From Halorubrum ruber (lineage in GTDB: Archaea; Halobacteriota; Halobacteria; Halobacteriales; Haloferacaceae), in NCBI RefSeq assembly GCF_018228765.1, contig NZ_CP073695.1, positions 2,341,218-2,405,217 of the forward strand: a stretch of 64,000 bases of DNA, written 5' to 3'. The notes below the pieces were generated by a model. It was not told the origin of the DNA, searched no databases, and saw nothing but the letters and a program-made list of their open reading frames with translations. Below are positions 49,242 through 58,872 of this stretch, in pieces (the stretch's first letter is position 1; the number at the start of each line of letters is the position of its first letter). Both the position numbers and the translations under genes were made by a program.

Positions 49242-52200
49242 TCAGTCGTCGCTCGACGCCTGTCCGGTCGCGTCGGCGTCGGCGTCCGGCACCGCGGCGG
49301 CCGGTGCGGGCGGCTCCTCGCGCACGTCGGCGCCCTTGCCCTCCGCGATGACCTCGGCGTACGCGTCGGGGAAGACGCGGACGAAGTCGTCGAGCGCGGC
49401 CTCCCAGTCGTCGAGGAGGTCGGCCGCGCGCTCGCTTTCGGTGTACGCGCGGTGGTTCTCGACGAGGCGGCGGAGCATCCGCTCGTCGGAGTCGTCGAGC
49501 GTCTCGGAGACCGACACCATCCCGCGGTTGACGCGGTCGTCGAGGCGGTCGTCGGGGTCGTACACGTACGCGATGCCGCCGGACATCCCGGCCGCGAAGT
49601 TGCGGCCGGTGTCGCCGAGGACGGCGACGACGCCGCCGGTCATGTACTCGCAACCGTGGTCGCCGACGCCCTCGACGACCGCCCGGACCCCGGAGTTACG
49701 GACGCCGAACCGCTCGCCGGCGACGCCGTTGACGTACATCTCGCCCGCGGTGGCGCCGTACAGACAGACGTTGCCGGCGACGACGTTCTCGGTCGGGTCG
49801 TACGCCGCCTCCGGGGGCGTGTCGATCACGAGGCGTCCGCCGGAGAGCCCCTTGCCGACGTAGTCGTTGGCGGCGCCGGACAGCTCCATCGTGATCCCCG
49901 GCGCGAGGAACGCGCCGAAGCTCTGGCCCGCCTCGCCGTCGAACCGGCAGGAGATGGTGTCGTCCGGGAGCCCCTCGCCGCCGTGTTCGGAGACGACGCG
50001 GTTCGAGAGCGTCGCGCCGACCGCGCGGTCGACGTTGCGGATGTCGCGGGTGAGCGCGACCGGCGCGCCGTCCTCGATGGCGGGCGCGGCCTCGTCGATG
50101 AGGTCCCAGTCGAGCAGGTCGTCGATGCCGTCGTGGGCCTGCTCGCGGACCTTCGTGCGGGACTCGCCCGCGGGCTCGGCGATGACCGCCGACAGGTCGA
50201 GATGCTTCGCCTTCTCGTGGTCGGTCTCGCGCTGGGCGAGCAGCTCGGGACGACCGATGAACTCCTCAAGCTCGGTGTACCCCTGCTCGGCCATGATCTC
50301 CCGGAGCTCCTGCGCGATGAACGTCATGTAGTTGATGACGTGGTCGGGCTGTCCCGGGAACCGCTGGCGGAGGTCCTCGCGCTGGGTGGCGACGCCGACC
50401 GGACAGGTGTTCTCGTGGCACTGCCGGGCCATCACGCAGCCCGAGGTGACGAGCGACGCGGTACCGAAAATGTACTCCTCGGCGCCCAGGGCGGCCGCGA
50501 CGGCGACGTCGCGCCCGGTGCGTAGCCCACCGTCCGCCGACACGCGAATGCGGTCGCGCAGTCCGGTGGCGCGGAGCATCTGGTTCGCCTCGGCGAGCCC
50601 GAGCTCCCACGGCAGGCCGGCGTTCTTGATCGACGTCTTCGGCGAGGCGCCGGTACCCCCGTCGTGGCCGGAGACGTGGACGACGTCCGCGTTCGCCTTT
50701 GCGACCCCGGCCGCGATGGTACCGATGCCGGCCTCCGACACCAGCTTCACGTTGACGTCGGCCTCGGGGCTGGCGGCCTTCAGGTCGAAGATGAGCTGCT
50801 TGAGGTCCTCGATGGAGTAGATGTCGTGTTGCGGGGGCGGCGAGATGAGCCCGACGCCGGGGGTCGAACACCGCACGTGCGCGATCATCTCGTTGACCTT
50901 CTTCCCGGGGAGGTGCCCGCCCTCGCCGGGCTTCGACCCCTGCGCCATCTTGATCTGGAGCTCCTCGGCGTTCGCGAGGTACTCCGAGGTGACGCCGAAG
51001 CGCCCGGAGGCGACCTGCTTGACGGTACACTCTTTTTCGGTGTCGAACCGCTCGGGCGGTTCGCCGCCCTCGCCGGTGTTGGACTTCGCGCCCAGCCGGT
51101 TCATCGCGATGGCGTTGTTCTCGTGGGCCTCCGGCGAGATGCTCCCGAGGCTCATCGCGGCGGTCGAGAAGCGCTCGACGATCGACTCGACGGGCTCGAC
51201 CTCCTCGACCGGTACCGGGTCGCGGTCGGAGTCGAACTCCAGCAGGCCGCGCAGCGACTGGAGCTCCTCGGTCTGGTCGTTGACCAGCTCGGCGAACTCC
51301 TGGTACTGCTCGTAGTCGCCGCCGCGGACCGCCTGCTGGAGCGTACCGACAGTCTGGGGGTTCCAGCCGTGTTTCACGCCCGACGAGCGGTGCTCGTACT
51401 CGCCGATCGTCTCCAGCTCGGGGTCGGCGCCGAACGCCATCGCGTGGCGGGTGCGGAGGTCGTCTTCGATCTGCTCGGCCCCGATCCCCTCGGTGCGGAT
51501 CTCGGTCCCCTCGAAGTACTCGGCAACGAACTCGGAGTCGAGCCCGACCGCCTCGAAGATCTGGGCGCCCTGGTACGACTCCATCGTCGAGATGCCCATC
51601 TTCGCCATCGTCTTGAGGAGGCCGTCCTCCAGCGCGTGGCGGTACGCCGCGAGCGCCTCGTTCTCGTCGGCGCCGTCCGGGCCGGCGACCACGTCGGCGA
51701 TGGAGGCGTACGCGAGGTACGGGTCGACCGCGTCCGCGCCGTAGCCGACGAGCGTCGCGAGGTGGTGGACCTCGTGGGGTTCGCCGGACTCGACGACGAC
51801 GCCCGCGCGGTTGCGGAGCCCCTTGCGGACGAGGTGGTGGTGGACCGCCCCGGTCGCGAGCAGGCTCGGCACCGCGAGCCGATCCGGTCCGACCGCGCGG
51901 TCCGAGAGGACGACGACGTCGGCGCCGTCCTCGATGGCGGCCGCGGCGTCCTCGCGGACCCGGCTGACGGCGTCGACGAGCGATCCGTCGCGGTCGTAGG
52001 TGACGTCGACGGTGACGGAGGTGAACCCGGGGCCGGCGGACGCGTCGTCGCCGCCGTCGCGCTCCCCCGGCGTCCGCTCGCCGGGCCCGGGGAGGTCTCG
52101 CAGCGCCGTCGTCTCGGCGTCCGTCAGGACCGGCGAGTCAGCGACGATCTGCTCGGCGTGTTCGGGCGTCTCGTCGAGGAGGTTTCGCTGGTTTCCGATT

Positions 52201-53954
52201 CGGGTCTCCAGCGAGGTGACGAGCTCCTCGCGGATGTAGTCGATCGGCGGGTTCGACACCTGCGCGAACAGCTGCTTGAAGTAGGTGAAGAGGGGGCGGT
52301 CGACGTCGGCCAACACCGAGAGCGGCGTGTCGTCGCCCATCGAGCCGACCGGGTCCTTGCCGTCCGTCGCCATCGGCTCGACGAGGTGGTTCAGCGAGTC
52401 GGTCGTGTAGCCGAACGCGGCCTGGTGGGCGCGGACGGTGGGTTCCGTCTCATCCGCCTCGCTCGACTCGTCCCCGCCGCCGACGGCGCCGTCGTCGACC
52501 CCGGCCGCGACGCCGTCCTCGTCGGTGAGCGCGTCGAGATCGACTTGGCCGTCCTCGACCCATTCGCCGTACTTCTCGTCGGTGAGCTCCTCGAACACCT
52601 CGTCGTCGGGGACGATCCGGCCCGCCTCGGGGTCGGCAACGAAGATCTCGCCGGGCTGGAGCCGACCGCGGCGCCGCACGTCGGCGGGCTCGGTCGGGAG
52701 CGCGCCGACCTCGCTGCCGACGACGAGGCGGTCGTCGGTCGTCACCTCGTAGCGGCACGGGCGGAGCCCGTTGCGGTCTAAGACGCCGGCGACGCGCTCG
52801 CCGTCGAAACCGATGACGAGGGCGGGACCGTCCCACGGCTCGACGAGCGAGGCGTGGTAGTCGTAGAAGTCGGCGCGGTCGTCGTCCATCAGGTCGTCGC
52901 CGCGGAACGCCTCCGGGATCAGCATCCGGAGCGCGTGCGGGAGGTCGCGGTCGGTCTGGAGCAGGAGTTCGAGCGCGTTGTCGACGCTGGCGGTGTCGGA
53001 CTGGTTCGGGTCGTCGATCACCGGCTTGATCGTGTCGAGCTCGGCCCCGAACGCCGGGTGTTCGAGGTCGTTCTCGCGGGCCCGCATCCAGTTGACGTTG
53101 CCGCGGATCGTGTTGAACTCGCCGTTGTGGACGATGTTGCGGTACGGGTGCGCGAGGTGCCACGCGCCGAGCGTGTTCGTCGAGAATCGCGCGTGGACCA
53201 AGGCGACGTGGCTCGCGAACCGCTCGTCGGTCAGGTCCGGGTAGTAGCCGTCGAGCTGCGAGCCCTTCAGCAGGCCCTTGTAGACGACGCGCTGGCGGTC
53301 GAGCGAGCAGACGTAGAAGCGCCCGGCGCCGTCGACCTCGGACACCGCGTTCTCGATCTCGCGGCGGGCGGCGTACAGCGCGCGGTCGAACCCGAGCAGG
53401 TCCGGATCGACATCGTCAGACCGATCCTCCTCGCTGGTGAATCGCTGGGCAAGCCCCGCGCCGTCGACGGGCGCGACGAACACCTGCGACACCTCCGGCT
53501 CCGAGTCGAGCGCCGTGGCGCCGAGGTCGCTGTTATCGGTCGGGACGGAGCGCCACGCGAGCACCTCCAGCCCGTAGACGGCGCACACCTCGGCGATGAC
53601 GTCGTGGATCTCCGCCTGGACGCCCGGTTCGGGCGGCATGAACACGGAGCCGACCGCGTACTCCTCCGGAAGGTCGGCGTCGACGACCTCGCGGAAGAAC
53701 TCGTCCGGACGCGCAACCATGATCCCCGCGCCGTCGCCGGTGTTCTCCTCCGCGCCGGTCGTCCCGCGGTGTTCGAGGTTCTCGAGCAGTTCGACCGCGT
53801 CCGTGACGGCCTCGTGCGACGGCGCGCCGTCGAGGTCGACGACCCCGCCGATGCCGCAGTTCGACCGGTCGTCCGTCGGCGCCGCGAGCCCCCTCTCCTG
53901 ACCCGAGGACTCCGAGTCGCGTACGCCCCGGGTGGTACTACGTGACTTGGTCAT
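49242..53954 (-). CDS. gltB: Glutamate synthase large subunit (ferredoxin type likely)
   Basis: 1570 residues, full-length GltB. Class II amidotransferase domain with the nucleophile Cys33 in NCGIGGVVDLDG after a 32-residue propeptide that must be removed. Then the central domain, the FMN-binding synthase domain (GAKSNTGEGGEPPER, QGSKPGEGGHLPGKKVNEMI, SGHDGGTGASPKTSIKNAGL), iron-sulfur cysteines in CVMARQCHENTCPVGVATQ, and the C-terminal GXGXG beta-helix (YVGKGLSGGRLVI, GGVVAVLGDTGRNFAAGMSG). No gltD is near, so ferredoxin is the likely donor. ATG 53954 has TTTAAC about 27 bases upstream. Acidic linkers are typical of halophiles. Confidence 0.95.
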   Translation of the reverse strand: MTKSRSTTRGVRDSESSGQERGLAAPTDDRSNCGIGGVVDLDGAPSHEAVTDAVELLENLEHRGTTGAEENTGDGAGIMVARPDEFFREVVDADLPEEYAVGSVFMPPEPGVQAEIHDVIAEVCAVYGLEVLAWRSVPTDNSDLGATALDSEPEVSQVFVAPVDGAGLAQRFTSEEDRSDDVDPDLLGFDRALYAARREIENAVSEVDGAGRFYVCSLDRQRVVYKGLLKGSQLDGYYPDLTDERFASHVALVHARFSTNTLGAWHLAHPYRNIVHNGEFNTIRGNVNWMRARENDLEHPAFGAELDTIKPVIDDPNQSDTASVDNALELLLQTDRDLPHALRMLIPEAFRGDDLMDDDRADFYDYHASLVEPWDGPALVIGFDGERVAGVLDRNGLRPCRYEVTTDDRLVVGSEVGALPTEPADVRRRGRLQPGEIFVADPEAGRIVPDDEVFEELTDEKYGEWVEDGQVDLDALTDEDGVAAGVDDGAVGGGDESSEADETEPTVRAHQAAFGYTTDSLNHLVEPMATDGKDPVGSMGDDTPLSVLADVDRPLFTYFKQLFAQVSNPPIDYIREELVTSLETRIGNQRNLLDETPEHAEQIVADSPVLTDAETTALRDLPGPGERTPGERDGGDDASAGPGFTSVTVDVTYDRDGSLVDAVSRVREDAAAAIEDGADVVVLSDRAVGPDRLAVPSLLATGAVHHHLVRKGLRNRAGVVVESGEPHEVHHLATLVGYGADAVDPYLAYASIADVVAGPDGADENEALAAYRHALEDGLLKTMAKMGISTMESYQGAQIFEAVGLDSEFVAEYFEGTEIRTEGIGAEQIEDDLRTRHAMAFGADPELETIGEYEHRSSGVKHGWNPQTVGTLQQAVRGGDYEQYQEFAELVNDQTEELQSLRGLLEFDSDRDPVPVEEVEPVESIVERFSTAAMSLGSISPEAHENNAIAMNRLGAKSNTGEGGEPPERFDTEKECTVKQVASGRFGVTSEYLANAEELQIKMAQGSKPGEGGHLPGKKVNEMIAHVRCSTPGVGLISPPPQHDIYSIEDLKQLIFDLKAASPEADVNVKLVSEAGIGTIAAGVAKANADVVHVSGHDGGTGASPKTSIKNAGLPWELGLAEANQMLRATGLRDRIRVSADGGLRTGRDVAVAAALGAEEYIFGTASLVTSGCVMARQCHENTCPVGVATQREDLRQRFPGQPDHVINYMTFIAQELREIMAEQGYTELEEFIGRPELLAQRETDHEKAKHLDLSAVIAEPAGESRTKVREQAHDGIDDLLDWDLIDEAAPAIEDGAPVALTRDIRNVDRAVGATLSNRVVSEHGGEGLPDDTISCRFDGEAGQSFGAFLAPGITMELSGAANDYVGKGLSGGRLVIDTPPEAAYDPTENVVAGNVCLYGATAGEMYVNGVAGERFGVRNSGVRAVVEGVGDHGCEYMTGGVVAVLGDTGRNFAAGMSGGIAYVYDPDDRLDDRVNRGMVSVSETLDDSDERMLRRLVENHRAYTESERAADLLDDWEAALDDFVRVFPDAYAEVIAEGKGADVREEPPAPAAAVPDADADATGQASSDD

Positions 53955-54185
53955 ACACTCGCGTACGAGTGAACAGTTAAAGGTATGACCCTGATAGGGG
54001 TAGGATCCATCGTACACACATTAGGGAATATAAGGTAATTATTCATCACGGGTGGTGACCAGATCACACACCCCTGTATCGATCAGAAATTTCGCACTAC
54101 GAGCCACATATTGACGGGTCCTACAAGAATTCTCCGCGGTCGTCTCGCTGATTCCGTCCAGAGTGGTAGAACGTCCAGTCGAGAG

Positions 54186-54486: not shown

Positions 54487-57400
54487 TCAGCGTCCGCGAC
54501 GCCGAGCGAGAAGCGACGCGCCCGCCAGCGCCGCGAGCGACGCGGCGGCGTCGAAACCGGGGAGGTCGTACGCGGTCGATCGGATCGGCGCCTCGTCGTA
54601 CCCGAGGTCGCTCGCGTCGGCCTCGTCCGGGGACGAGTCGCCCGCCGCAGGCGAGTCGGACGGCTCGATCGAGTCGGTGGATTCCGTCGACGTCGCGCCG
54701 TCGCGTTCGCCGCCACCCGGGTCGTTCGACCGACCGTTCTCGGAGCGAGACCCGGCCGCCGAGGGGTCGCCCGCGCCGCGCTCACGTCCGCTGGGTCCGA
54801 GGAGCTCCGGCGGCCCCGCGGACGGCGGAATCTCCGACTCTCCGGGAGCGATCGAGATGCCCACCCCGGGGCGCGGCGCCGGGCGGTTCGCGTCCGAACC
54901 GGGCGACCCTCCGGTCGGACCCGGACCGTCCGCGTCCGTGACGTTACCGGCGCCGGTCGAGTCGGCCGGGCCGACTGGTCCTCCGGATCCGCTCGGGCCG
55001 CCGGCCGAGCCGCCGCCGGCCGAACCGCTGCCGCCCGCGCCCGAACTGCCGCTGGCCGAACCGCTGCCGCCCGCGCCCGAACTGCCGCTGGCCGAACCGC
55101 TGCCGCCCGCGCCCGAACTGCCGCTGGCCGAACCGCCGCCGGCCGAGCCGACGCTGGCCGAGCCGTCGCTGGCCGAACCGCCGCCGGCCGAACCGCTGCC
55201 GCCCGCGCCCGAACCACCGCTGGCCGAGCCGCCGCCGGCCGAACCGCTGCTGGCCGAACCGCCCGCCGAGCCGGTCGATCTCGACGCCTCCGAGTCGGCA
55301 GTCGCTTCGGTCGAGTTGTCGCCGCTCTCGGTGTCCGCACCTCCGTCGGTTGGAGCGGCGGCGGCGTAGGTCAACTCGGTCGTCGCGCGGTGCCGGTCGT
55401 CCGCCGCGGTCCGACGCAGTCGGTCGTCGTCGACTCGGAACCCGGCCTGGAACGTCGCGCCGGGATCGGGGACCGTCTCGGTGCCGAATGCGCGTTTTCC
55501 GTCGGCGACGAGGTACAGGCCCTCCCGGTCGAGGTGGACCGCGGACCCGTTCGGCGTCCGACCGAGCGCGTCGTCGTCGGTGGACTCGTTGCCGTCGTCC
55601 GTCCCCGTCGGCGCCACGCCGAACGAGAGTCCGTCAAGGCGGTCGAGGTCCGCACCTCGCTCCAGCGACGCGTTCGCGGCCGCCGGGAGGCCCGTCAGCC
55701 CGCTCGCGTTCACGGCGTACACGACGGTGTCGTTCGCGGTCGCGGCCGTGGCCGGCGTGAGCGTTCCGTCGGCAATCGCCTCCCGGACCGCGGTCACGTT
55801 TTCGAACTCCCCGGGTGCGACCGACCGTGTGGTGTACGCGGTCAGGTCGCTCGTCGAGCGGGGTTCCACGGTGACCGTCGCGGTGTCGTTGGCGACTTCG
55901 GTGCCATGCTCCGACCGCAGCGTGATGTTGTACGTCCCGGGCGAGAGCGGAGCGGTATCGCCCGTGACCGATTCGACGTCGATGCCGGACCCGGTCGTGA
56001 CGAACTTCGACGGGGATTCGGGCGACGCGTACGTGTTGAGCGTGACTGGTGTCGGACTCGTCTCGGTGGTTGTCAGTTCGAGTGTTGTAGTGGTGCTACT
56101 ACTCGTATTAGATAATATCAGTTCCAAACTTGGCACACGATGAGACAGAGAGATTCTGATATGATTTCCATACATAGCTTGATTTGAAATATCGCTTAGA
56201 GAGATCTCTTTTTTGTGCTTTCCAATAATATGAAATTTCTCTGAGTTTTCTTTTCTTGAGTGAATATGATATGTACCGGAGGAGAGCAGTGACGTATTAT
56301 AGCCGACTTGATCTGAATTGTTTAATCGAGTTCCCACAGACACTACGCGAGTTGTGTTGTCCTCGTTTAGTCTGTGTAATTCAACTTCTTCCGCATTTAA
56401 CGAAGAGTTAAAATAGATCATTTGACCAGAGTATACAGGTGTTTCCAGTGAGTGATTGGGCTTGATTTGAACAGCCTCTGAGTTAGACCCGTCTTTGCGG
56501 ATAGAATCTATTGAGATCACGCCAGCATCTGCGACACCATCAGAAACAAAGTGATTATTCAGGTCAGAGTTCCGCAGTAATTCAGAATCTTTTGGGGAAA
56601 TCCAATCCCCAGCGCTATGTCCACATGCCAACTGAATGGCCGCCGCATAGCGATTACTTCGGAAAATACCACTTCCGTCACTTGTAGTATTAAAATAAAG
56701 TTTAACGTCTTCATTCCATCCAGTTAGTACTCTTGAACTAGCAACAGCCTCGTTATGTCGGATGTGTCCAGTTGAGTTGACTGGATATAATGAAACCAAA
56801 AATGGGGTTTCATCCTCAATTGCGTCAGAAACTTTAGCACTGGAGACTGTGATACTATCTGTTTTTGGGTTATCATAAGAAAGATTAGAAAAATCAATAC
56901 CAGCATTTACTATCCGTCCCTCGTCGGCTGACAACGCTGAATTAGTTATGTTAGTAGGAAGGGAGTCCCCAATACCGCGGTCAGAAATCCCAGAAGTAGA
57001 GTTCGCAATCAGATATCCCCTAACATCTCCCCCCGGATAGGATGTACCAACGGAAACTGTTTCCTTTGTCTTGAGGACACTTTTCGGAAGTCGTCGAATA
57101 CCGATTATCTCATTATCATCACCACGTGTAATGAAAAGAGTCGAGTTTGTGTTGCCGCTGATATCATCGATTGTTATGCCGATAGTTGTGCGACTATCTT
57201 GATGTAATTGAGGTGAGCCGGTAGCCTGATTATGAATTTCAATTGTACCATCGATTATCTTGAACGAATCTGTACTTGTTCCTGCCATAGATTCTATAGA
57301 AGAGAAATCAGAGTTGTTTGTGACAGTAATATTATATTGTAAATTGGTTGATTTTTGAACATTGCTTGTATCCATTCCAGATATTTGAGCAGAGCCAATC

Positions 57401-57810
57401 TGGATTGAGCGACTCGATCTATTTGGACGGATAGTTGCTGTTAGAAGCGTCTTATTCTCAGATTTCACCTGTGTGGTGTTAATTACAGATCCATTTTGAA
57501 TATTCTTAATAGACATTGAGGCCGAGGATGTATTGGCTCCCCTTGACTCAATACTAGCTAAATTCACAGATAATCTGATCTTGTTCGTAGTATCTTTCTG
57601 ATTTGGGAGTAGTATCTCTATATTGCTAATATTTTGTTCAGACTGATCTATTCGAATAGTGTCTGGGTCGCCGGTCTTATTTAAAACAGGTTTATAATCA
57701 TAAGTTTGAGCTCCGGCCGTAGTCACTCCCAATGATAAAACCACAGCACCCACCACGACACAGACCACGACGCCGACCCACAACCATTGAAGCGATTGCA
57801 TCCGGATCAT
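54487..57810 (-). CDS. Large surface glycoprotein with PGF-CTERM anchor, composition mosaic
   Basis: 1107 residues. Signal peptide (about 1-34, VGVVVCVVVGAVVLSLGVTT), an extracellular region very rich in Asn/Ser/Thr with dozens of N-glycosylation sequons, beta-rich repeats, then a GSGG/SASGSSGAGGSG low-complexity stalk (about 835-960) and an end DLPGFDAAASLAALAGASLL plus ARRR, the archaeosortase PGF-CTERM signal. Codons for residues 1-570 (57810 down to about 56100) are AT-rich, while the rest has the usual high GC, so the ectodomain looks imported onto a resident anchor. S-layer-like or adhesion role inferred. ATG 57810 or 57801. Confidence 0.85.
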   Translation of the reverse strand: MIRMQSLQWLWVGVVVCVVVGAVVLSLGVTTAGAQTYDYKPVLNKTGDPDTIRIDQSEQNISNIEILLPNQKDTTNKIRLSVNLASIESRGANTSSASMSIKNIQNGSVINTTQVKSENKTLLTATIRPNRSSRSIQIGSAQISGMDTSNVQKSTNLQYNITVTNNSDFSSIESMAGTSTDSFKIIDGTIEIHNQATGSPQLHQDSRTTIGITIDDISGNTNSTLFITRGDDNEIIGIRRLPKSVLKTKETVSVGTSYPGGDVRGYLIANSTSGISDRGIGDSLPTNITNSALSADEGRIVNAGIDFSNLSYDNPKTDSITVSSAKVSDAIEDETPFLVSLYPVNSTGHIRHNEAVASSRVLTGWNEDVKLYFNTTSDGSGIFRSNRYAAAIQLACGHSAGDWISPKDSELLRNSDLNNHFVSDGVADAGVISIDSIRKDGSNSEAVQIKPNHSLETPVYSGQMIYFNSSLNAEEVELHRLNEDNTTRVVSVGTRLNNSDQVGYNTSLLSSGTYHIHSRKENSEKFHIIGKHKKEISLSDISNQAMYGNHIRISLSHRVPSLELILSNTSSSTTTTLELTTTETSPTPVTLNTYASPESPSKFVTTGSGIDVESVTGDTAPLSPGTYNITLRSEHGTEVANDTATVTVEPRSTSDLTAYTTRSVAPGEFENVTAVREAIADGTLTPATAATANDTVVYAVNASGLTGLPAAANASLERGADLDRLDGLSFGVAPTGTDDGNESTDDDALGRTPNGSAVHLDREGLYLVADGKRAFGTETVPDPGATFQAGFRVDDDRLRRTAADDRHRATTELTYAAAAPTDGGADTESGDNSTEATADSEASRSTGSAGGSASSGSAGGGSASGGSGAGGSGSAGGGSASDGSASVGSAGGGSASGSSGAGGSGSASGSSGAGGSGSASGSSGAGGSGSAGGGSAGGPSGSGGPVGPADSTGAGNVTDADGPGPTGGSPGSDANRPAPRPGVGISIAPGESEIPPSAGPPELLGPSGRERGAGDPSAAGSRSENGRSNDPGGGERDGATSTESTDSIEPSDSPAAGDSSPDEADASDLGYDEAPIRSTAYDLPGFDAAASLAALAGASLLARRRGR

Positions 57811-58078: not shown

Positions 58079-58759
58079 TCAGTGTTCGACCGCTTCCATC
58101 ATCGAGAGCAACTGCTCGCGCTGGGACGCCTGTTCCGGGTGCACGCCGACCATCGCGATCGCGTCTTCGCTGTCCGCGCCGTCCGCGGTGTGTTGGACGG
58201 TAGCGATGTACAGGAGAACGGGGACGTCTTCGACGGATCCGCTCGAGCTGTCCGTCCCCTCGACGTCGGCGCTGATCGTCGTCTCGAAGACCGGGATGGT
58301 GGCCTCTTCGCCGAGGATCGTCCGGGTCTCCTCGCCGCGCTCCTCGACGTCGTCCGTTTGGATGTCGGCGTTGCCGCCGCCGACGTCCTGCTGATTGATC
58401 TGGTTGAGAAGCCGTCGGATGAGGTCCGCACCCTGCACCCTGACCAGCGGATTGACCGACTGTCCGGCGACGGAGGCGTTCGGCGTACTCGCCACGAACA
58501 GCGCCGACTGGGTCGTCGAGTTGGTGTACCGGGCGACCCACGTCGTCGCCGTGACCTTCGCGTTCACGCCAGTGACGTTGAACTCGCGGTCGATGGTGTA
58601 CGACTCCGGATCCTCCCCGGAGTAGCCCTCCGCGTACGCGGACTCGGGAACGCGCGCCGGTTCCGCGTCGAACTCGTAGCTCCCGTCCTCGCCGGCGCAT
58701 CCGGCGATAGCGACCGAGGTCGACGCCGCGAGTGCCGCGAGCAGTCCACGTCGTTTCAT
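58079..58759 (-). CDS. DUF6517 family lipoprotein
   Basis: 226 residues with MKRRGLLAALAASTSVAIAG and lipobox IAGC (Cys21). The body matches the haloarchaeal DUF6517 pattern: VTATTWVARYTNSTTQSALF, VFETTISADVEGTDSSSG, VPVLLYIATVQHTADG and a final EQLLSMMEAVEH. Extracytoplasmic and lipid anchored; function unknown. ATG 58759 is chosen since it starts the twin-Arg signal and has TTAAAG about 27 bases upstream. Divergent from the membrane protein at 58873. Confidence 0.85.
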   Translation of the reverse strand: MKRRGLLAALAASTSVAIAGCAGEDGSYEFDAEPARVPESAYAEGYSGEDPESYTIDREFNVTGVNAKVTATTWVARYTNSTTQSALFVASTPNASVAGQSVNPLVRVQGADLIRRLLNQINQQDVGGGNADIQTDDVEERGEETRTILGEEATIPVFETTISADVEGTDSSSGSVEDVPVLLYIATVQHTADGADSEDAIAMVGVHPEQASQREQLLSMMEAVEH

Positions 58760-58872
58760 GTGTTCCAGTAGGTCTACACAGTTCTTTAAGCCTATCGACG
58801 CGGCTATCGGTCGCGAGAACCCCGCAGCCGAAGGCACAAAGTTCACGTCGGGCCGCGCGCGACGTGAGGCAA

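Follow-up and report, generated by a model that had tools for sequence, protein, structure and literature searches.

How a single reading frame came to be composed of an AT-rich half and a GC-rich half is the question raised by the gene at 54487..57810 (minus strand, as are all features given here) of the window, a 64,000-nucleotide stretch of the Halorubrum ruber genome. The initial annotation attributed this structure to replacement of the exposed half by recombination with a foreign source, while the anchor was retained. The gene is present as a single copy in the genome (3.02 Mb, one contig) and encodes a secreted, archaeosortase-type anchored surface protein of 1107 amino acids, in which a signal peptide and an AT-encoded half rich in Asn, Ser, Thr, and Ile precede a GC-encoded half, with a GSGG stalk and a PGF-CTERM-like tail at the C-terminus. 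The outer 540–560 residues form the head, which is rich in N-glycosylation sequons (about 21–24 per head, twice the shuffled number). The head is followed by a constant base of 231 amino acids (55396..56088), the stalk, which is of low complexity and varies in length (54691..55395), and the sorting motif (54496..54561). The tail scored 18.3, 19.6, and 24.1 bits in three profile searches against PF18204 (PGF-CTERM, cut-off of 18.8 bits); as two of the three scores were above the cut-off, the anchor assignment was considered sound and the motif slightly off consensus. The conserved neighbors are gltB encoding the large subunit of glutamate synthase (49242..54017) and, upstream, a gene for a DUF6517 protein (58079..58765).

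The GC content in 300-bp windows was 0.62–0.68 upstream of the gene, 0.37–0.46 at about 57750–56100, and 0.69–0.82 thereafter, which agrees with the initial description of AT-rich coding DNA from about 57810 to 56100 and GC-rich DNA upstream. The N-terminal half and the next 231 codons differed in overall GC (0.41 vs. 0.70) and in GC3 (0.35 vs. 0.87). In a fit with two change points, the first step lay 69 nt downstream of the ATG and the second 20 nt beyond the assumed N/C boundary, near STTTTLELTTTETSPTPV, where a sharp switch to halophile composition had been noted. The AT-rich half had been described as beginning at the gene start; this held for nearly all of it, except that the first ~25 codons, encoding the signal peptide, belong to the constant part. 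The same steps were found across 40 genomes (medians of 70 nt downstream of the ATG for the first and 5 nt from the N/C boundary for the second), with the change point lying upstream of the ATG in two of them. For comparison within the genome, the 64-kb window and fifteen 20-kb stretches were divided into 728 windows of 500 bp, of which 31 had a GC content below 0.5, four of these being the cassette. AT-rich tracts thus occur elsewhere in the genome, and what marks the cassette is a sharp step inside one gene. None of the five other PGF-CTERM-matching genes of the genome had such a step: four stayed at a GC content of 0.66–0.77, and the S-layer glycoprotein candidate dropped only to 0.53.

The gene was compared across 52 genomes of the genus, one per species, including H. 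distributum JCM 10118 (G114), H. ezzemoulense DSM 17463 (G115), and H. californiense (G110). Sequence searches detected the base in 46 genomes and the source-type head in 27, and the head search was bimodal, with 53–82% identity in its own clade and about 23–32% in other clades. The source head had no match in close relatives such as H. distributum, despite 96% identity of the neighbor gene and 89% identity of the base in that genome. All-against-all BLAST of the N-terminal halves longer than 300 residues (42 of 46) resolved two blocks, and typing of the 52 genomes by profile search yielded 27 genomes with type I (the type of the source genome), 21 with type II, and four untyped (G109, G124, G138, and G147), in which the gene was absent or the contig ended. 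Both forms occurred in each of the three main clades of the genus, and all 40 orthologues with a complete N-terminal half had an AT-rich head of one of only these two ancient forms. The N-terminal part is therefore variable, in two forms, and the C-terminal part constant, as the initial annotation expected. That annotation would have been contradicted by a shared AT-rich half of vertical descent; the orthologues are indeed all AT-rich, but they share neither one sequence nor a vertical history.

Cross-type profile matches at the locus spanned only model positions 1–67 to 1–166, corresponding to the leader and signal peptide, so the residual cross-type BLAST matches are best explained by the common leader. 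When the type I and type II profiles were aligned end to end with the signal peptide, the probability was 98%; without it, hhalign gave 50%, confined to the last 146 columns, and the trimmed core reached 18%. Judging from these alignments, the similarity between the two heads is barely detectable; they may be homologues of great age, a relationship that shows best in the last domain.

No genome among the 52 carried both types. Switching within a genome between an expressed and a silent cassette, as in phase-variable bacterial surface antigens, would call for a silent donor copy in the same genome. A second full cassette was found in none of the 52 genomes, some of which are one contig, and positive evidence for such switching was not found; we regard this explanation as barely conceivable.

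Query pieces of the head, base, DUF6517 gene, and gltB were mapped on 54 loci, 53 of which were from the genus. The gltB gene followed in 40 of the 46 base-bearing genomes, and the remaining six had no gltB in the stretch examined, mostly because the contig ended. In the two larger clades, the DUF6517 gene was found at the locus; in the third, it lay elsewhere. Contig ends interrupt several of the loci. DNA homology between the source genome and H. distributum ended at 56094 and restarted at 57736, delimiting a type I cassette at 56095..57735, which in 21 of the 52 genomes is occupied by type II. Its 5′ flank consists of the conserved signal-peptide codons (57736..57810), which are common to both types within each clade. 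The exchanged unit accordingly runs from about 25 codons into the gene to the composition step and is identical with the AT-rich unit. Flank DNA distances (upstream, signal peptide, and base) were compared among 16 genomes of clade 1 and 10 of clade 2. Mean between-type and within-type distances were nearly equal in the flanks, with gaps mostly of 0.01–0.03 and a maximum of about 0.06, reached in clade 2; they diverged solely inside the cassette. The flanks had no association with head type.

Head type was then set against phylogeny using gltB and, as an independent marker, SMC, which is more than 300 kb from the locus in the source genome; both trees were built quickly and have many weakly supported branches. 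The 40 genomes of the gltB tree required 12 type changes, compared with an average of 13.4 after shuffling (146 of 500 shuffles were as low), and the 48 genomes of the SMC tree required 17, compared with 16.0 (411 of 500). The nearest SMC relative was of the same type in 23 of 48 genomes, and four of nine mutual nearest pairs differed in type. At a given gltB distance, base identity was nearly the same whether or not the two genomes shared a head type. Together with the homology breaks in H. distributum, this disregard of the species tree upholds the part of the initial proposal in which the exposed half is replaceable on a constant anchor. The same data bear on a differential loss of two ancestral tandem paralogues. 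Such loss would explain why the types exclude each other and are distributed patchily; however, it predicts that the C-terminal halves and leaders group by type, and they grouped by lineage. As positive evidence for it was not found either, we consider it hardly credible.

A random distribution of type on both trees, and flanks unlinked to type, would also result from repeated transfer of the cassette between species within a clade, each species being fixed for one type without a standing dimorphism. Haloarchaea are reported to swap DNA across species (PMC3988388), and the cassette and SMC agreed on the nearest same-type genome in only 27 of 40 cases. However, unless every donor lies outside the sample, transfers on terminal branches should yield some pairs with a head at least as similar as the base, and head identity reached base identity in none of 381 same-type pairs. 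Because the heads were less alike than the bases in all 381 pairs, recent hopping of the cassette between the sampled species was not seen. Within each type, head distance tracked gltB distance (Mantel r = 0.51, p = 0.002 for 19 type I genomes; r = 0.83, p = 0.001 for 17 type II genomes). Unsampled donors may lie behind the distribution, and we hold repeated transfer to be a less probable alternative. Given the random type and the absence of such pairs, an old dimorphism that outlived many speciations fits better than recent imports, and on these sequence comparisons a standing dimorphism inherited through speciations would fit best. The dN/dS of the head was 0.16–0.28 (15 pairs), with no sign of diversifying selection, which weighs against the selective reading favored below; the values indicate constraint within each type and are easier to reconcile with two discrete functional states than with an open-ended arms race. 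An older coalescence of the head was also considered from dS, which in the head was 1.6–5 times that of the base (15 pairs); it was set aside, as the GC-biased base saturates at a lower apparent divergence.

The remaining part of the initial proposal, an import of AT-rich foreign DNA, recent enough for its composition to be not yet ameliorated, accords with the sharp composition step and with the absence of the cassette from the near relative H. distributum. It did not withstand the comparison across the genus, in which both forms were AT-rich: in 40 genomes, GC3 was 0.23–0.41 in the head (mean of 0.31) and 0.72–0.96 in the next 231 codons (mean of 0.85). In nine chosen cross-clade pairs of same-type heads, 63–82% of the comparable fourfold sites differed, while GC4 was 0.15–0.38. 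As fourfold sites are near saturation between clades and yet AT-rich, the low GC is maintained and is not a foreign residue; a foreign signature inherited from an ancestor would no longer be visible. The low GC is kept up by local mutation, conversion, or selection. An outside source was likewise not found. Scans of IMG/VR with both head profiles returned 15 and 55 stretches matching by pattern, none of which was confirmed, each scan using one short pattern of low sensitivity, and tblastn of one head per type against phages and plasmids gave no match. We therefore judge a recent foreign replacement to be very improbable. The adjoining parts of this one frame, with GC3 near 0.31 and 0.85 throughout the genus, offer a natural experiment on base composition, and the contrast suggests that haloarchaeal GC is set locally, or opposed locally.

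The base matched residues 304–562 of the S-layer glycoprotein candidate of the source genome (69 bits). The last domain of the type I head, which is proximal to the membrane (approximately 56131..56475), matched the N-terminal domain of the same protein (41 bits), and that of type II did so weakly. The candidate itself was under the cut-off of the S-layer model and above the cut-offs for the BGTF domain and PGF-CTERM. The S-layer model NF041335 had no match at E ≤ 0.1 in two type I and two type II proteins. These matches to the candidate, and the lack of one to the model, identify the gene product as an S-layer paralogue and not the S-layer protein itself. AlphaFold2 models of both heads were all-beta (pLDDT of 80.9 and 80.2), and structure searches with them returned generic Ig, FN3, and integrin-leg strings, with the Haloferax S-layer protein (7ptp) among the matches (Z of 7.0 with an rmsd of 15.2 over 294 aligned residues, and Z of 10.5 with an rmsd of 19.2 over 333). 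The head is thus modeled as a stack of beta-sandwich domains, a fold that indicates no specific function. Pfam gave only stray matches on the heads, in one or two members (e.g., DUF7282 in 1 of 18). The best E-value of the head profiles against PDB sequences was 0.28, the C-terminal profile matched PDB sequences almost solely in its low-complexity stalk, and PADLOC detected no defense system. Like the haloarchaeal S-layer glycoprotein (NF041335, DUF7827, and BGTF), the gene product has a homologous base, tandem beta-sandwiches, PGF-CTERM, and many sequons; unlike it, it is encoded at a separate locus, does not match the S-layer model, and has a dimorphic outer part.

The absence of a link between type and tree, combined with two ancient heads, points to long-lasting selection keeping both forms. 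We therefore favor, with a probability of roughly 60%, the reading that this S-layer-glycoprotein paralogue carries two ancient, idiomorph-like heads that are swapped as one cassette and kept by balancing selection. The PGF-CTERM tail would anchor the paralogue, and its outer tandem beta-sandwich head would exist as two alternative forms ("homeoalleles") replaced as one cassette. Switching would occur by double crossover in the conserved flanks during DNA exchange between cells. Both forms probably coexist within species, the present sample comprising one genome per species. Balancing selection that maintains them would most likely be frequency-dependent, because the glycosylated head is presumably what viruses bind. 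Trans-species balanced polymorphisms are classic in the MHC, plant self-incompatibility, and fungal mating types. A literature search by title and opening lines, with most subscription literature outside its scope, found no paper on this locus and no archaeal trans-species polymorphism or haloarchaeal idiomorph case.

A two-form glycosylated head would suit a ligand-recognition role under frequency-dependent selection, and virus attachment is our leading guess for its function. A Halorubrum S-layer extract is reported to trigger fusion of virus HRPV-6 (PMC8875312). Against virus-driven selection, two types are few, and the S-layer gene in the same genus is patchy and multi-form. Cell–cell recognition is the second and bolder guess. 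The head might decide which cells fuse or stick, as a mating-type-like binary recognition locus balanced since before the radiation of the genus, in which type I pairs with or avoids type II and AT-richness would be the footprint of long exclusion from GC-keeping gene conversion. The two forms are ancient, near-evenly spread, and mutually exclusive at one locus, and they resemble the fungal MAT idiomorphs, in which a single locus carries one or the other of two dissimilar alternatives across species. Haloarchaea mate by fusion, and S-layer glycosylation is described as affecting mating in Haloferax (PMC5496957). However, the gene seems absent from one genome (G109), and we consider this role unlikely. 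With one gene, two heads, a constant anchor, and sharp boundaries, the locus provides a simple head-swap test system for virus sensitivity and cell fusion.

The closest known parallel is the homeocassette of H. ezzemoulense (Feng et al. 2024, PMC11078007), described as multi-gene islands between core genes within one species. As in the Halorubrum head, of which 27 genomes carry type I, 21 type II, and none both, homeocassettes are mutually exclusive, divergent variants at one genomic position. Their flanks are near-identical, and those of the head cassette are likewise far more conserved than the variants. Homeocassettes are thought to be swapped via their flanks and held long-term, and virus receptors have been suggested (PMC11078007). 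What differs here, relative to that account, is a cassette inside one reading frame, with two forms across the genus and its own AT-rich composition; none of the nine homeocassette pairs in Table 1 of PMC11078007 adjoins gltB. In Haloferax, two divergent S-layer glycoprotein types occur among close relatives (PMC5867893); as reported there, these types follow rpoB clades and differ over the whole protein, whereas the Halorubrum heads ignore phylogeny and share an anchor. The cell-wall island of Haloquadratum walsbyi contains variable surface-protein genes, ascribed to homologous recombination and virus pressure, including a surface protein conserved at both ends around a repeat (PMC4535781). 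Many versions of that island are described in one species, in contrast to two forms of one N-terminal head in Halorubrum. The VARTIG modules of Thermococcales include an archaeal Ig-type protein with a recombining variable region (PMC8416519), described as a hypervariable C-terminal Ig domain with varied downstream genes; in the Halorubrum gene, the variable part is N-terminal, and gltB is downstream wherever the contig reaches.

The GTDB records with these loci were Halorubrum species, one genome labelled Halobellus captivus, and one MAG (Halobacteriales archaeon), and no other genus of the family yielded a full-length head. Parts of the heads have weak relatives in other large surface-protein frames, for type I residues of about 175–440 in G110, G125, G162, and G056, and for type II residues of about 240–590 in many haloarchaea. 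The type II-related stretches mostly had a GC3 of 0.7–0.9, with two at 0.46–0.48 and one at 0.57, and the type I-related stretch in G162 was AT-rich (GC3 of 0.39–0.46), so low GC is mainly, and not wholly, a trait of this locus.

The DUF6517 gene upstream of the gene under study (window 58079-58765, minus strand) was found in most of the genus, and in the third clade (for example, G105) it lies away from the locus; therefore, a rearrangement just upstream of the locus separates the clades.

The candidate S-layer glycoprotein, encoded by a separate gene of the H. ruber genome (G000:C1:2888059-2891200, L216), is patchily distributed across Halorubrum. Used as a query against 52 genus genomes, it was matched in 35, its own included (E<=1e-10), with identities of 30-66% in the matching genomes other than its own and at varying genomic positions. 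No match at this threshold was obtained in some close relatives, such as H. distributum JCM 10118 (G114).

Several orthologues of the gene under study had broken or unusual frames. The loci from H. californiense (G110, L094) and H. ezzemoulense DSM 17463 (G115, L099) carry a stop inside the stalk region, with a match to the tail present further along, which may represent a frameshift, a pseudogene, or an assembly error in the repeat. The type I cassette of G155 (L122) is broken by an in-frame TAG, and that of G133 is contained in an open frame of 2516 aa near a contig end (L141, G133:C2:160000-169004), much longer than every other orthologue.

Fragments related to the central part of the type I head were also observed in H. 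californiense, a type II genome, within other very large open frames of 1629 aa (G110:C62:41446-42186) and 1371 aa (G110:C5:1604-1921). Beside the cassette, the H. ruber genome contains further AT-rich tracts with a GC content of about 0.41-0.50, located in parts of the stretches L224, L227, and L230 and in L232 (G000:C1:2300001-2320000), where they total several kb.
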